Part shown: piece by piece, positions 20,692 through 29,738 of the stretch | Position numbering within the stretch: position 1 is the stretch's first letter | How the letters are laid out: each line of letters opens with the position of its first letter | Assembly: GCF_003073135.1 (NCBI RefSeq) | Contig: NZ_PGDQ01000006.1 | Coordinates: 124,001 to 188,000 of the forward strand | From: Euzebya rosea | GTDB taxonomy: Bacteria; Actinomycetota; Nitriliruptoria; Euzebyales; Euzebyaceae | Reading direction: 5' to 3' | DNA length: 64,000 bases | The notes under the pieces: model-generated | Seen by the model: the letters and a program-made list of their open reading frames with translations, nothing else | The model's database searches: none | Told to the model about the DNA's origin: nothing | Position numbers and translations under genes: made by a program

Positions 20692-21001
20692 TCACGATCC
20701 CCACGACCCCCGCCACGACGGCCACCGAGAGGTACCCGAGGACCAGGCGGGTGTCGCCCAGCTTGCAACGCGACGCCAGCAGGCCGGCCCGGTATGCCCT
20801 GACGTAGGCCACGACCGCCAGCGTGCCGAACACGACGACGGCCAAGGGAGGGGACAGCACCCACGCGACCAACGCCACCGTCGTCGCGACGCACAGTCGC
20901 AGCGGATCCGGTGGCGCCGGTGGGGCGTGGCCCGTCGGGGCATGCGGGTCGTCCTCGGAAGCGGAGGCGAACGCTCGTGGGACGCGCGGGTCCACGCTCA
21001 T
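20678..21001 (-). CDS. small membrane protein closing the radical SAM operon
   Basis: 107 residues. About 40 hydrophilic N-terminal residues (MSVDPRVPRAFASASEDD...) are followed by two close hydrophobic helices (VATTVALVAWVLSPPLAVVVFG and the C-terminal LGYLSVAVVAGVVGIVIRL) joined by a basic loop. ATG 21001 overlaps the radical SAM stop (ATGA), so it is translated with that enzyme. I do not recognise the family. The position suggests a membrane partner of the lipid-modifying enzymes upstream. Confidence 0.7.
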   Translation of the reverse strand: MSVDPRVPRAFASASEDDPHAPTGHAPPAPPDPLRLCVATTVALVAWVLSPPLAVVVFGTLAVVAYVRAYRAGLLASRCKLGDTRLVLGYLSVAVVAGVVGIVIRLT

Positions 21002-22845
21002 CGCCGCGGGCCCGTCGACACCACGGGCAACGACCGGCCGGGTCGACCCAGCGACGGTGCCGTCTCGCCTGCGGTCAGGCGCGACAGCCGTTGCCCCGAC
21101 AGCTCCGTCCAGCTCTGCACGGCGCAGAACGGCGCGCACTGGTTCGCATCGGCGTCGCGGGTGCCGACGTGCACGCAGCACTGCAGCAACCGCTCCTCCA
21201 CCATCGTGTCGATGTCCATGAACGGCTTGACGGTGATCCGCACGATCCGCTCGGCCAGCAGCTTGCGCAGGGACCGTCGCGACGCCCCCGCCCGCGCCAG
21301 CTTCAGCAGCCCCGGGACCCCCAGGTCGCAGGCGTCGCAGACGGTCCTGAACAGCTCGGCGGTCTCGGGGTGGGTCAACGACGACCGCTCCGACAGCAGG
21401 CCGAGCAACGACTCGCGGGCCAGCACCCGCAGGTCCTCCGCCAGCTCGGGCTTGGCCATGCCGGTGTTGGCCACCAGCCCCAGGTGCTCGGCCAGCACCT
21501 CCGGACCGAGCAGGGCCACGAGCGACTGCCACACCGGCCCGTCCACAGACCCCCGCCCTCGGGTCCTCGCGAGGTCGTACTCTTCCGGGGGGGCTCCGCC
21601 ACCCCCGGACCCCCCGGGGACGACTCGCTCCGGGCCTCGGGAACCCCGCCCTCGGGTCCTCGCGAGGTCGTCCTCTTCCGGGGGGGCTCCGCCACCCCCG
21701 GACCCCCCGGGGACGACTCGCTCCGGGCCTCGGGAACCCCGCCCTCGGGTCCTCGCGAGGTCGTCTGTCCTGAACAGGTAGCCGACCGAGCAGCAGTGGG
21801 GGTGGGAGCAGGGGAGGGCGGTCAGGTCGCGCCAGGTGATCCGGCCGTCGGTCTGCGGACCCAGTCGGGCCAGCACCCCGGTGTGGGTCAGCCGGTCCAG
21901 GGCGTCGATCTCGCCCGACCGGCCGGCGCCGAACTGTGGCTGCAACGACACGCCGGTCACGTACGGGGTGGCCAGCGCCAGGTCGACGACCGCGCCGATC
22001 TCGTGGTCGTTGACGCCCATCGCGATCGTCATGGTCAACGTCGTGAAGATCCCGGCGTCCGACAGCGCCCGCACGGCCTCGGCCTTGACCCGTCGCAGGT
22101 CCGCTCCGCGGTGGTGGCGGTGCCCCGCCAGGTCGAAGCCGTCGTGCTGCAGGTAGACCTCGACGCGGTCGCGGTGCCGACGCAGGGTCTCCAGCACCCC
22201 GGACTCGCCCCGGGCGATCGTCAGGCCGTTGGTGTTGACCAGGACCCGCACGACGTCGCGTTCCAGCAGCCGGTCGAGCAGCTCGCCGAACCCCGGGTGC
22301 AGCGTCGGCTCGCCGCCCGACAGCATGACCACGTCCAGCCGCCCGTTCTCGCGCGCCAGCCGCTGGTCGACGTTGGCCAGCACCTCCTCCACCGGCACGA
22401 AACCGGCGACGTCGGGTCCGGACCCGGCGAAGCACGTGGGGCACGACAGGTTGCAGGTGTCGGTCAGGTCCTCCAGCAGGATGCAGGTGTGCTGGGTCTG
22501 CAGCTCGCCGAGCCCCTGCAGGTACCCCGCCGGAGGAGGGGTGAAGTTGCCGGCCGTGTCGGGCACGTGCACCTTCGTCGGGGCGGTCCACCGCTCCAGC
22601 CAGTCGAGGATCTCGGGGTCCTCGTCGTACAGCGTGACGATCCGGCCGTGATCGGGACAGCCGCGCACGAGCCACACCCTGCCGTCGGCCTCCGACAGGT
22701 AGCCGGGCAGCCGCCTCGCGCCGTCCACCGACCCGCCGTCGCGGTCGTGGCAGCGGGGGCACCACGCCGTCACGTAGCGGCGGATCCGGTCGGTCCGCGT
22801 CGCCATGCCCTTCGCCGGGACGCCGTTCGCCGACTGATCGCTCAC
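20998..22845 (-). CDS. radical SAM enzyme of the tetraether / membrane-spanning lipid synthase family (Tes/MJ0619-like)
   Basis: 615 residues. The N terminus has a zinc-ribbon or rubredoxin-like pair (TAWCPRCH at ~31, RGCPDHGRIVTLYDEDPE at ~65). The SAM-cluster motif is CNLSCPTC (~residues 128-135), then SGGEPTLHP, VYLQHDGFD, HRGADLRRVK, GVNDHEIGAVVDLAL, LQPQFGAGR and LPCSHPHCCSVGYLF. The C terminus has a cysteine cluster KPFMDIDTMVEERLLQCCVHVGT...CAPFC. From memory these match the MJ0619 family, whose archaeal member (Tes) couples lipid chains by C-C bond formation and whose bacterial relatives make membrane-spanning lipids. Family members are ~480-520 aa; the excess is a 71-residue in-frame repeat insertion (360-431). 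GTG 22845 overlaps the Lgt-like stop. Confidence 0.85.
   Translation of the reverse strand: MSDQSANGVPAKGMATRTDRIRRYVTAWCPRCHDRDGGSVDGARRLPGYLSEADGRVWLVRGCPDHGRIVTLYDEDPEILDWLERWTAPTKVHVPDTAGNFTPPPAGYLQGLGELQTQHTCILLEDLTDTCNLSCPTCFAGSGPDVAGFVPVEEVLANVDQRLARENGRLDVVMLSGGEPTLHPGFGELLDRLLERDVVRVLVNTNGLTIARGESGVLETLRRHRDRVEVYLQHDGFDLAGHRHHRGADLRRVKAEAVRALSDAGIFTTLTMTIAMGVNDHEIGAVVDLALATPYVTGVSLQPQFGAGRSGEIDALDRLTHTGVLARLGPQTDGRITWRDLTALPCSHPHCCSVGYLFRTDDLARTRGRGSRGPERVVPGGSGGGGAPPEEDDLARTRGRGSRGPERVVPGGSGGGGAPPEEYDLARTRGRGSVDGPVWQSLVALLGPEVLAEHLGLVANTGMAKPELAEDLRVLARESLLGLLSERSSLTHPETAELFRTVCDACDLGVPGLLKLARAGASRRSLRKLLAERIVRITVKPFMDIDTMVEERLLQCCVHVGTRDADANQCAPFCAVQSWTELSGQRLSRLTAGETAPSLGRPGRSLPVVSTGPRR
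21551..21765 (-). repeat. 93-bp tandem repeat, about 2.3 copies, inside the radical SAM gene
   Basis: Units start at 21551, 21644 and 21737 (partial). The first two are nearly identical. Each encodes a 31-residue unit reading DDLARTRGRGSRGPERVVPG then GSGGGGAPPEE on the minus strand. The unit contains the palindrome CCTCGCGAGG and a G/C-run inverted repeat. The 93-bp period keeps the frame. The insertion follows the conserved CSHPHCCSVGYLF segment. Confidence 0.9.
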
Positions 22846-23648
22846 GACCCCACCTCCACGGCAACCGGCTCGGGGAACGAGGGTGGGCGCAGCAGCCCCG
22901 ACCGCCACGTCCGCACGAGTCGCCACGCCAGCAACGGCAGCGTCACCAGCAGGAACACCTGTGACCCCGACAGGGGCCCGACCAGGTCGGGGTTGGCGCG
23001 CAGCCACTCGCTGGCGAACCGGAACGTCCCGTAGGCCAGCAGCCACACCGTGAAGATCATCCCACGCTTGTGCAGCCGGTCGCGCAGCGCGACCACGGCG
23101 ACCAGCGACACCACGTGGAAGCCGATCTCGTAGGCATGCGTCGGGTGGCTCGGCAGCAGGCACGCGGCGTCGCATCCCACCAACCCGTCGGCCTGGTCCG
23201 GTGACAACGCCACCCCCCACGGCAACGAGGTCGGGGTGCCCAACGGTTCGGTCAGCAGGCAGCCGATCCTCCCCACGGCCATCGCGGCCGGGACCGCGGG
23301 GGCGAACAGGTCGCCGGTGGAGTGGTGGATGCCGACGAGCTTCTTGGTGACCTCCGCCCCGGCGTAGGCCCCGAACAAGCCCCCGAGGATCGACTTGCCG
23401 CCGTACGCCAGCACCCCCAGCACCGACGGGTCGTCCACGGTCAGCAGGTACCGCCAGGTCGTGGCGCCCTTCGCCAGCAGCACCCCACCGACCAGGGCTC
23501 CGGCCGCGACCAGCAGGTGGGCACGATCGGCCATGCCACGACGTCGTGCCTCGGTCACGTACACGGCAAGGCCGACCAGGGCGCCGAGCACCACGAACAG
23601 GTCGTGGATCGGCGCTGACCAGGGGCCGAGCTGCCAGGTCGAGATCAC
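22842..23648 (-). CDS. Lgt-like membrane protein (divergent prolipoprotein diacylglyceryl transferase family)
   Basis: 268 residues, seven hydrophobic helices in the Lgt pattern. It has LAYGGKSILGGLFGAYAG where Lgt has the GG-x-S-x-HGGL motif, AVGRIGCLLTEPLG in place of GRxGNFxNxExxG, and SHPTHAYEIGF matching HPtxLYE. So the motif histidine (His103 of E. coli Lgt) is Leu and the first Asn of the signature (Asn146) is Cys, while the signature Arg remains. True Lgt moves diacylglyceryl from phosphatidylglycerol to a lipoprotein cysteine. This paralogue probably handles another glycerolipid acceptor. GTG 23648 overlaps the DUF2510 stop and its own stop overlaps the radical SAM start. Confidence 0.85.
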   Translation of the reverse strand: MISTWQLGPWSAPIHDLFVVLGALVGLAVYVTEARRRGMADRAHLLVAAGALVGGVLLAKGATTWRYLLTVDDPSVLGVLAYGGKSILGGLFGAYAGAEVTKKLVGIHHSTGDLFAPAVPAAMAVGRIGCLLTEPLGTPTSLPWGVALSPDQADGLVGCDAACLLPSHPTHAYEIGFHVVSLVAVVALRDRLHKRGMIFTVWLLAYGTFRFASEWLRANPDLVGPLSGSQVFLLVTLPLLAWRLVRTWRSGLLRPPSFPEPVAVEVGS

Positions 23649-23902
23649 TGCGGCGTCGCCCCCGAGAGCAGCGCCAGGCAGGCACCGAACAGCAGGGCGA
23701 TCATCGCGGCGGAGACCAGCAGCCACGCGACGACCACCCCGAGGACGACGAGGACGGTCCTGCCGCCGCTGGGCCGCGGCTTGGGGGCCGGATGGTCGGG
23801 GCCGAGCCGAACGTCCGCGACGTGGTCGGTCCACGCCTGCCCGTCCCACCATCGCATCGCGCGCGGGTTGGACGGGTCGGGGAACCACCCGGCCGGTGGC
23901 AT
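23645..23902 (-). CDS. DUF2510 single-span membrane protein
   Basis: 85 residues. Residues 1-30 form a DUF2510 module (PPAGWFPDPSNPRAMRWWDG followed by QAWTDHV), a short Trp/Pro motif common at the ends of actinobacterial membrane proteins. A basic linker and one long hydrophobic helix follow. Function unknown. ATG 23902 shares a base with the stop of the acyl-CoA ligase and the gene's stop overlaps the Lgt-like start, so it is an integral part of the five-gene operon. Confidence 0.8.
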   Translation of the reverse strand: MPPAGWFPDPSNPRAMRWWDGQAWTDHVADVRLGPDHPAPKPRPSGGRTVLVVLGVVVAWLLVSAAMIALLFGACLALLSGATPQ

Positions 23903-26775: not shown

Positions 26776-28623
26776 TCAGGTCCCGGTCTCGACGGCGTCG
26801 GGCGCGTCCGTCGCCGGTGCTGCCTCGACAGGTGCCGGCGGGGCGGTGAACCAGAACGTGGCGCCGTTGCCCGGGCTGGACTCGACGCCGATCCGACCGC
26901 CGGCTGCCTCGATGTGCTTCTTTGAGATCGCCAGTCCCATGCCCGTGCCGGGATACTCCTGACGGGTGTGCAGGCGGCGGAGCATCACGAAGATCTCGTC
27001 GTGGTACTGCGGGTCGATGCCGATGCCGTTGTCGGTCACCGTGATCCGCCACATGCCGTCCTCGCGGGTGGCGGTGCCGTGGATGCGCACCTCGCCCGGA
27101 GAGCGGTACTTCAGGGCGTTGCCGATGAGGTTCTGGAACACCTGGGCCATGGCAGCCGGTTCGGCCAGGACCGTCGGCAGCGGATCGACCTCCACGATCG
27201 CCTCGGCCTCGAGGATCGCCGCCCCCAACGATCCGACGGCCTGACGCCAGGAGACGTTGAGGTCCACGGGCTCCAGGACGTGGTCCCGCCCGGCACGGGA
27301 GTAGTCCAGCAGCTCGCTGATCAACGTCGACATGCGGCTGGCCCCGTCGCGGGCGTAGGCGATGTACTCGAGGGCTCGATCGTCCAGCCCGTCGGCGTAC
27401 TGCATCTGGAGCAGCCCGACGAAGCTCGACACCGTGCGCAGCGGCTCCTGCAGGTCGTGGGAGGCGACGTAGGCGAACCGTTCCAGCTCCAGGTTCGACC
27501 GGGCCAGCTCCTCGCGGCTCTCCCGCAGGTCCTTGGTCATGGACTCGGCCAGCCGGACCGCACGGATGCGGGCGGTCGACATCGACCGCAGTCCCAGCAC
27601 GATGAGGGAGGTGATGATCAGCCCGACGACCCCGACCACCCAGGGGGTGGCCCGCTCGAACGGCGTGTTCAGGGGCTCGACGGCCTGGTAGAGGATCGCC
27701 CAGCGTCGCCCGCCGATGTCGTACTCCAGCAGCCGTGCGTCGCTGGCATCGACCCCGTCGGGCACGGTCGCGTCGTCGCCGAAGGTCAGGTTGTCCGGGC
27801 TGGCCGGCACCGGGTCGTCCGGGGTGCCGACGTCGTAGACCTCCAGCCGGGCGTCGGCGTTGTCGCCGAGCACCCCCTCCACCAGGTCGCCCATGCGAAA
27901 GGCGGCGTAGGACACGCCCGTGAACGCCGCGCGCCGTTCCTCCACCGTGGACACGCCGGGGTTGTCGTAGATGGCGACCATGACGAGGAAGCCGCTCTGG
28001 GAGCCCGTTTCCTGGACAAGCACGATCGGGGCGGTGGTGGCGACCTGCCCGGTGTCGCGTGTCAGCTCCACGGCCGCACGGCGGTTGGCCTCGGAGAAGA
28101 AGTCCAGGCCGAACGCGGCCTCGTTGCCGGCGGTCGGCTCGACGTAGTCGATCAGGACCTTGGTGTCGTCGGTGGTCCGTGGATGGGGCACGAACTCGGG
28201 GTACGCATCGACGGTGCCGGCGTCGGCGTTGACCGCCTCGACGTGTGCGCCCAGCTGCGTCGCGTCGACCCGCGTGGCGTGCCCGATCACCTGGATGCCG
28301 GGGTACCGAGTCGTCAGCTCGAGCGCCCCGACGAAGGCGCGCCACTCGTTGCGGTCCACGGGACCGGCGGTGAACAGGCCACGTCCACCGAAGATGGACT
28401 CGGTGTAGGCCTGCATCCGACGGTCGATGGCCTCGCGGGCCTCGTTGGCCCGCCGGTCCAGCCGGTCCTGGGCGCTGGAGTCCACCGTTCGCTCCGCCCA
28501 CACGACCAAGCTGACCGTCAGCGCGAGCAGCACCGCCCCGATGACCCACGGCAGCGCGACAGGCCACACCGAGCGCGACGACGCCTCGGTGTCCCGCCTT
28601 CCGTCCGAGCCCACCAGCAACAT
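26776..28623 (-). CDS. CHASE-domain sensor histidine kinase
   Basis: 615 residues. TM1 (~25-45, [20 protein letters not shown]), an extracytoplasmic CHASE domain (~80-300), TM2 (~325-348), a coiled linker, a HisKA domain with the phospho-acceptor in [16 protein letters not shown] (~389), and HATPase_c with N-box [11 protein letters not shown] (~500), G-box DNGIGID and [21 protein letters not shown] domains bind small extracellular ligands. The [10 protein letters not shown]-box is of the phytochrome/light-regulated kinase subgroup. No response regulator gene is adjacent, so this is an orphan kinase. ATG 28623 is chosen because longer frames run through the tRNA-Sec gene. Confidence 0.92.
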
Positions 28624-28699
28624 GGTAGAGGCACGATCGGCCGGGCAACGACCGACATGAACGGGATCCGGGCACGAGGGTCGTGGAACGGGGAGGAAG

Positions 28700-28792
28700 C
28701 GGAGGCGGACGGGAATCGAACCCGCCAGGACGGCCGAGCCGCCCTCATCGGTGTTGAAGACCGTGGGGCCCACCAGGAACCCAGACGCCCCC
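28700..28792 (-). tRNA. selC: tRNA-Sec (anticodon UCA)
   Basis: Reading the minus strand, acceptor GGGGGCG pairs with CGCCTCC (one G-U). The D region TTCCTGGTGGGCCCCA follows. The anticodon arm is CGGT-CTTCAAC-ACCG with TCA in the loop, there is a long variable arm GGGCGGC-TCG-GCCGTCC, and the T arm is GCGGG-TTCGATT-CCCGT. The discriminator is G73 and CCA is not encoded. About 93 nt, the size class of bacterial selenocysteine tRNA, with 13 bp of acceptor plus T stem when counted as 7+6. It decodes in-frame UGA with SelB. Kinase gene follows 76 bases downstream. selA, selB and selD are not in the window. Confidence 0.87.
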
Positions 28793-28854
28793 ATGGGCTC
28801 CCACACCCTACCCGTCCCGGGCAGGCCGCTCGTGAGGAGCGGTGCGCTGCCGAC

Positions 28855-28860
28855 TAGCCT
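28855..28860 (+). promoter_or_regulatory. -10 hexamer TAGCCT upstream of the PAC2 gene
   Basis: TAGCCT ends 8 bases before ATG 28869, with no Shine-Dalgarno sequence, consistent with a leaderless transcript. It lies between this gene and the divergent tRNA-Sec. Confidence 0.55.
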
Positions 28861-28868
28861 TGAGGGCC

Positions 28869-29738
28869 ATGGCCACCCCCTCCATCCACTGGACCCAGGA
28901 AGTGCCGGCGCTGCGGCGTCCGGTGATGCTGCTCGCCCTCGATGGCTTCATCGACGCAGGCAACGCCGCCCAGACCGCCGCCATGTTCCTGCGGCATCGC
29001 TGGACCGCCGAGGTCGTGGCCACCTTCGACCACGACACGTTCATCGACTACCGGGCACGCCGGCCCACGACGGTCATGGACAGCGGCGTCCTGCGGCGCA
29101 TGGAGTTCGACGAGCTGCAGGTGCTGGTGGCGCGAGTCGACGACTCGCCGCACGACGCGGTGTTCCTGCTCGGCCCCGAGCCCGACATGCGGTGGGAGGC
29201 CTTCTGCGCCACCGTCGTCCGGCTGTGCCGTGACCTCGGCATCGAGCAGGTGATCGGCCTGGGTGCCTACCCGGCCGCGGTCCCGCACACCCGTCCGGTC
29301 AACGTCACCTCCGCCCGCAACATCGCCTCGGGCGAGGTGCTGCCGACCACCAGCGAGGTCGCCGGCTACACCGGTCCCGTGGGCGCGCAGGTGATGCTGC
29401 AGCACCGCATGGGCGAGGCCGGCATTCCGGCGGTCGGCATGTGGGCCGAGGTGCCCCACTACATCTCCGCCAACAACCACCCGTCGTCCGCCCTGGCGCT
29501 CGTCGACGTCGTCGCCGGCGCCTTCGGGGTGTCCATCGACACCACCGAGCTGCAGGCCGCCGCGCGAGCCCACGAGGAGCAGGTCAACGACGCCGTCGCC
29601 GACCACCCGGAAGCCGCCGTCATGATCAGCCGGCTGGAGGCCCACCACGACGAGGGCGGGGCCGCGATGCAGGTGCCGTCGGGTGACGACCTTGCCGCCG
29701 AGATCGAACGCTTCCTGTCCGACCGGGGCGGCGAGTAG
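28869..29738 (+). CDS. PAC2 family protein
   Basis: 289 residues of the PAC2 fold, named after the eukaryotic proteasome assembly chaperone and common in actinobacteria and archaea. Typical are [20 protein letters not shown] near the N terminus, the [14 protein letters not shown] strand, and [19 protein letters not shown] near residue 195. Bacterial function is unproven, but co-occurrence with proteasomes is known and bpa lies 1.4 kb downstream here. ATG 28869 has a hexamer 8 bases upstream. Confidence 0.85.

Follow-up and report, generated by a model that had tools for sequence, protein, structure and literature searches.

Positions 28792 to 28700 on the minus strand of the window (the whole 64,000-nucleotide stretch analysed here, C6:124001-188000 of a 5.5-Mb genome in 40 contigs) almost certainly carry a functional selC gene, whose selenocysteine tRNA (tRNA-Sec) would act in a complete bacterial pathway for decoding UGA as selenocysteine (Sec). 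This reading is drawn from sequence and rests on the tRNA itself, on selA, selB and selD, and on target genes that contain an in-frame UGA. The host is a marine actinobacterium of the genus Euzebya (phylum Actinomycetota). For its class, Nitriliruptoria, we consider a further proposal to be evenly poised between true and false, namely that there is a lineage-specific subfamily of DsbF/Mpt53-like exported lipoproteins that occurs in this class in its Sec form alone, decoded by a 7/6 tRNA-Sec with bulged D and anticodon stems.

The first-pass annotation had proposed a tRNA-Sec at these positions, with the strand unstated, on the basis of a UCA anticodon, a long variable arm, an elongated acceptor/T helix and a length of about 93 nt. 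All of these features were recovered, at exactly these coordinates and on the minus strand. ARAGORN called tRNA-SeC (anticodon tca, minus strand) at 28699-28792, and the Rfam model RF01852 matched 28792-28701 at 65.0 bits, its gathering score being 47 (E 5.6e-11 in the 64-kb window), so that the covariance-model check suggested at the outset accepts the fold. On the whole genome the same model gave this as its sole match above the cut-off (E 1.1e-12), the next best scoring 43.7. Nucleotide 1 of the tRNA lies at 28792, nucleotide 92 at 28701 and the discriminator base, a G, follows at the end of a gene that does not encode CCA. Folding gave -49.2 kcal/mol (z -2.1 versus dinucleotide shuffles), with 13 layers in the acceptor/T stack. 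The variable arm also forms in relatives.

The genes flanking selC, for a histidine kinase and a PAC2-family protein, both lie outside the Sec system, and no sel gene adjoins the tRNA. The TAGGGT upstream of selC is probably a promoter element, and a TAnnnT-like element was seen by eye at a comparable upstream distance in most aligned tRNA-Sec relatives. As had also been noted earlier, UGA is the commonest stop codon in the window, ending 31 of the 37 heuristically called genes. Elsewhere in the window, inside a radical SAM-like minus-strand frame (CNLSCPTC), we observed a 93-nt tandem repeat with two complete copies at 98% identity and a third of which 31 nt are present; since 93 nt correspond to 31 codons, that frame stays open.

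Table 1. Coordinates of the features discussed (window positions, unless a contig is named).
Feature	Position	Strand	Basis or detail
tRNA-Sec (selC)	28700..28792	-	93 nt including discriminator G73 at 28700; ARAGORN, RF01852
Anticodon UCA	28755..28757	-	ARAGORN, sequence
Long variable arm	28727..28745	-	8-bp stem and 3-nt loop; fold
T arm	28708..28726	-	G49.U65 and C50-G64; optional sixth pair G-C in place of the mismatched eighth acceptor pair
Anticodon arm	28746..28765	-	bulged A (tRNA nt 45, window 28748); covarying pair 29-46 beside C28-G47
TAGGGT, putative -10 promoter element	28805..28810	-	by eye, 13-18 nt upstream of tRNA-Sec
CHASE-domain histidine kinase, downstream of the tRNA	26776..28622	-	Pfam CHASE, HisKA, HATPase_c
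PAC2-family protein, divergent, other flank	28842..29738	+	Pfam PF09754, 185 bits
Radical SAM-like frame	20998-23685	-	CNLSCPTC
93-nt tandem repeat	21548-21764
selA	C9:102277-103323		PF03841, TIGR00474
selD	C2:75998-76924		TIGR00476
Predicted Sec DsbF/Mpt53-like lipoprotein gene 1	C4:370614-371153		WFWAPW-U-PVC-NREAP
Predicted Sec DsbF/Mpt53-like lipoprotein gene 2	C9:147806-148372		WFWAPW-U-STC-NREAP
Thioredoxin-like lipoprotein gene in relative G066	C20:265755-266294		WESW-U-PQC

We then compared the geometry of this tRNA with the 8/5 fold by which bacterial tRNA-Sec is described (PMC5330540). Its UCA anticodon, G73, long variable arm, 13-layer acceptor/T stack, G49.U65 and C50-G64 are shared with E. 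coli selC, whereas the eighth acceptor pair is U.C in Euzebya and C-G in E. coli, and the Euzebya tRNA has a bulged nucleotide 15 in the D stem and a bulged A45 in the anticodon stem. Across 14 distinct class sequences the eighth acceptor pair, N8-N66, is U.C or U.U and never paired (0/14), and in all 14 the base before the T stem, G48, can pair with N66 to give a 7/6 arrangement that keeps the 13 layers. Because G48 is also found in actinobacterial tRNA-Sec of regular 8/5 fold, this pairing is compatible with the sequences but unproven, and the stack may be read as 7/6 or as seven pairs, a mismatch and five. The D stem suits a register in which nucleotide 15 is bulged (pair 13-25 is G-C in 10 and A-U in 4 of the 14), and the anticodon stem one in which A45 is bulged (pair 29-46 is A-U in six, G-C in five and unpaired in three), while the Rfam registers of both stems fail at several of these pairs. 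We rejected the D-stem extension offered by the minimum-energy fold of the host sequence (10-29, 11-28), as 10-29 pairs in just 9/14 relatives. Exceptions to 8/5 have already been reported: other, unusual bacterial tRNA-Sec whose stack measures 12 bp have bulges at 13a and 43a, places comparable to those seen here (PMC5330540). A split other than 8/5 therefore marks a variant, not a molecule outside the tRNA-Sec family.

The earlier suggestion to look for selA, selB and selD was borne out, all three being present above curated cut-offs, so that the full bacterial Sec-decoding set of selA, selB, selC and selD occurs in one genome. The selA product scored 359.7 bits with PF03841 and 447.7 with TIGR00474 (cut-off 267.9), SelB scored 308.2 bits with TIGR00475 (cut-off 242.25) and carries the SelB winged helix PF09107, and SelD scored 381.9 bits with TIGR00476 (cut-off 125). 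These genes lie on contigs other than that of selC; selA and selB are intact and near one another on the same strand, with chloride-channel-like and diguanylate-cyclase-like genes called between them or over the gap. The catalytic site of SelD bears Cys instead of Sec (motif HGAGCGCK), and, as we found no match to the selenouridine enzyme SelU in the host genome, the evident purpose of SelD is Sec insertion. From established biology we infer that SerRS would load tRNA-Sec with serine, that SelA would turn the seryl-tRNA into the Sec form with selenophosphate supplied by the Cys-type SelD, and that SelB would bring Sec-tRNA-Sec to UGA codons followed by a SECIS hairpin; any advantage of Sec at active sites would be understood on the same grounds.

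A formate dehydrogenase frame containing UGA had been named as an example of what to look for, and one was found. Searching with PF00384 identified a molybdopterin enzyme on contig C15 with a single in-frame TGA, fdhA, whose frame reads ...VENQARI-UGA-HSSTVPGLGTSFGRGG... and which adjoins a beta-subunit-like gene. The whole match of FdhA to NF041513 scored 1861 bits across that one TGA, covering model positions 3-185 before the UGA and 215-1065 after it. Compared with known actinobacterial formate dehydrogenases (NF041513; TIGR01553 relatives), both UGA flanks match, Sec would occupy the canonical site and the beta-subunit-like neighbour is present, with no difference that matters. Every class match above the NF041513 cut-off contains a TGA (one also a TAG), and the UGA occupies the identical site, NQARI-U-HS[SA]TVP[GS]LG, in 22/22 readable class loci.

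Starting 11 nt 3' of the fdhA UGA is a 7-bp hairpin with a GGUCU loop, which on its pattern of covariation we take to be a bacterial SECIS element. Across 21 distinct sequences 94.6% of its cells are paired and three pairs show changes on both sides; the covariation score exceeded all 500 shuffles, and shifting the partner by one or two columns abolished the signal. The Rfam model RF01989 (SECIS_3) matched at the same site with 31 bits (E 2.9e-5), below its gathering score. When a covariance model of this hairpin was searched against the genome, it recovered fdhA and one chance-level match, and nothing else. We also observed, in relatives G002, G005, G006, G007, G009, G011, G027, G029, G041, G057 and G065, a second, shorter type of molybdopterin oxidoreductase (frames of about 650-790 aa) that likewise has one in-frame TGA; the Euzebya relative G002 has this shorter type and no full-length match to the long FdhA type.

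In addition to fdhA, a genome search with PF00578 revealed two frames with one in-frame TGA each, and both, when read through, give lipoprotein-like proteins in which UGA stands in place of the first Cys of a CxxC motif. Both belong to a family of exported redox proteins that has attracted little attention. For the copy on contig C9, the best solved relatives are M. tuberculosis DsbF (3ios; phmmer E 3.2e-27) and Mpt53/DsbE (1lu4; E 1e-23), both of which have Cys at this position. The predicted selenoproteins share with these the W[FLM]W[AT]PWxxxC active-site frame and thioredoxin-domain homology; they differ in having Sec for the first Cys, and in the sequence NREAP that follows the motif in nearly all Sec members. 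A profile built from the two host lipoproteins and searched against 90 relatives identified 21 close homologues in 20 class genomes, and on inspection of the sequences each has one TGA, at the first Cys of CxxC, with an active site of the form TGA-NNN-NNN-TGC (UxxC). None of the nine PF00085 matches in the genome is a further thioredoxin with an in-frame TGA, and no NCBIfam model matched the lipoprotein family at its cut-off. In a tree of the DsbF-like family the Sec rows and the mycobacterial-type Cys rows part weakly (80/89), with the outgroup in the wrong place; for these reasons we claim no direction for the change between Cys and Sec.

The neighbourhood of the C4 copy is one of cytochrome c maturation, with genes for a CcmF C-terminal domain and CcmH, a small unmatched gene, the Sec gene and a ferric-reductase-like gene. 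The position of this copy two genes past a CcmH-type gene suggests a selenol version of an extracytoplasmic thiol reductase. Cys relatives on actinobacterial plasmids adjoin CcdA genes. From sequence we infer that the lipoproteins are exported selenol-disulfide reductases; as Sec relatives of DsbF/Mpt53 they are predicted to act like these proteins, without being standard (CxxC) members. UxxC selenoproteins of redoxin type are already known as a kind, having been listed as PF00578 Prx-like, PF08534 redoxin and cd02966 proteins (PMC13188914). In a comparison at the level of families, ours share with them the thioredoxin fold, UxxC and matches to PF00578/PF08534, and differ in being of the actinobacterial DsbF/Mpt53 type and widespread in Nitriliruptoria. 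A thioredoxin-like lipoprotein with a TGA at the same motif was also observed in G066, a relative from another actinobacterial class, and is perhaps an independent gain of Sec.

Could the tRNA be a decaying pseudogene, its function lost as indicated by the U.C eighth pair and the mismatches in the D and anticodon stems? In the Rfam alignment the acceptor, D and anticodon stems do contain pairs flagged as non-standard. However, the acceptor mismatch is present in 21/21 class members examined, and in most members the deviations in the other two stems are resolved by the alternative registers, with two-sided changes at 13-25 (G-C/A-U), 29-46 (A-U/G-C) and 33-41 (U-A/C-G). Together with intact SelA, SelB, SelD and UGA-containing targets, this makes decay extremely improbable, and because the deviations are common to the whole class we read the unusual geometry as a lineage variant. 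We attach equally negligible weight to a UGA suppressor or a tRNA-Sec-like tRNA (selC* tRNA-Cys or allo-tRNA) that would insert Cys or Ser. Such tRNAs do resemble tRNA-Sec, but in selC* tRNA-Cys position 73 is U and the fold is 8/4 (PMC7609411), whereas the host tRNA combines G73 and UCA with 13 layers in the acceptor/T stack; moreover the genome encodes SelA, SelD and a SelB that carries PF09107.

A separate doubt concerns the two thioredoxin-like frames, in which the TGA might be a true stop or the genes might be pseudogenes. The candidate SECIS element of these genes, CGGG-ARGCY-CCCG with a 4-5 bp stem at a distance from the UGA near that in fdhA, covaries weakly, and part of the hairpin is dictated by the protein motif CNREAP alone. 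Against this, the TGA falls at the catalytic Cys in every one of the 21 homologues from 20 genomes, whereas the class homologues listed with lower scores have no stop in frame, and both halves of the frame are conserved. Codon choice after the UGA is also strongly biased: by raw counts over related sequences, the Pro codon at +8 is CCC in 21/21, versus 10/21 for the Pro that precedes the UGA by two codons, and the Ala codon at +7 is GCT in 13/21, versus 3.3% of Ala codons in the host genome. The sequence after the lipoprotein UGA thus appears constrained beyond what the protein needs, and we consider it very unlikely that these frames are anything other than selenoprotein genes.

We note that the earlier remark that Sec use is patchy in actinobacteria requires some nuance, as it does not hold within class Nitriliruptoria, where 48 of the 66 genomes searched gave a tRNA-Sec scoring 56 bits or more. 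Among the genomes with selB above its cut-off, 34/36 have such a tRNA, versus 14/30 of the others (Fisher p 1.5e-5). Over the class genomes the occurrence of Sec-FdhA does not follow that of selC (Fisher p 1.0), because six drafts (G010, G018, G019, G023, G054 and G063) have a UGA-containing fdhA and no tRNA-Sec above about 56 bits. Several of these six are incomplete or error-ridden. No selC was found in the stretches examined of G010 and G018, and in the latter selA and selB are themselves frameshifted, which makes errors of assembly likely in that genome. For some of the drafts, the absence of selC is probably due to assembly that is faulty or incomplete.

The core system is a standard bacterial Sec pathway, and the presence of a tRNA-Sec within it is ordinary biology. 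As far as the literature and libraries were searched, what is new is the class-wide Sec form of the DsbF/Mpt53 branch and the 7/6-like tRNA, both modest additions. How SelA and SelB gauge the 13 layers of the acceptor/T stack is a question to which the tRNA variant is relevant. The three predicted selenoprotein genes, fdhA and the two lipoprotein genes, are a minimum for the host genome, in which gene callers will cut short at least three redox genes at an in-frame TGA. Much of an actinobacterial class would decode UGA as Sec, and Sec in place of the first CxxC Cys of a predicted exported disulfide oxidoreductase would offer a natural comparison of Sec and Cys with the solved mycobacterial DsbF and Mpt53.
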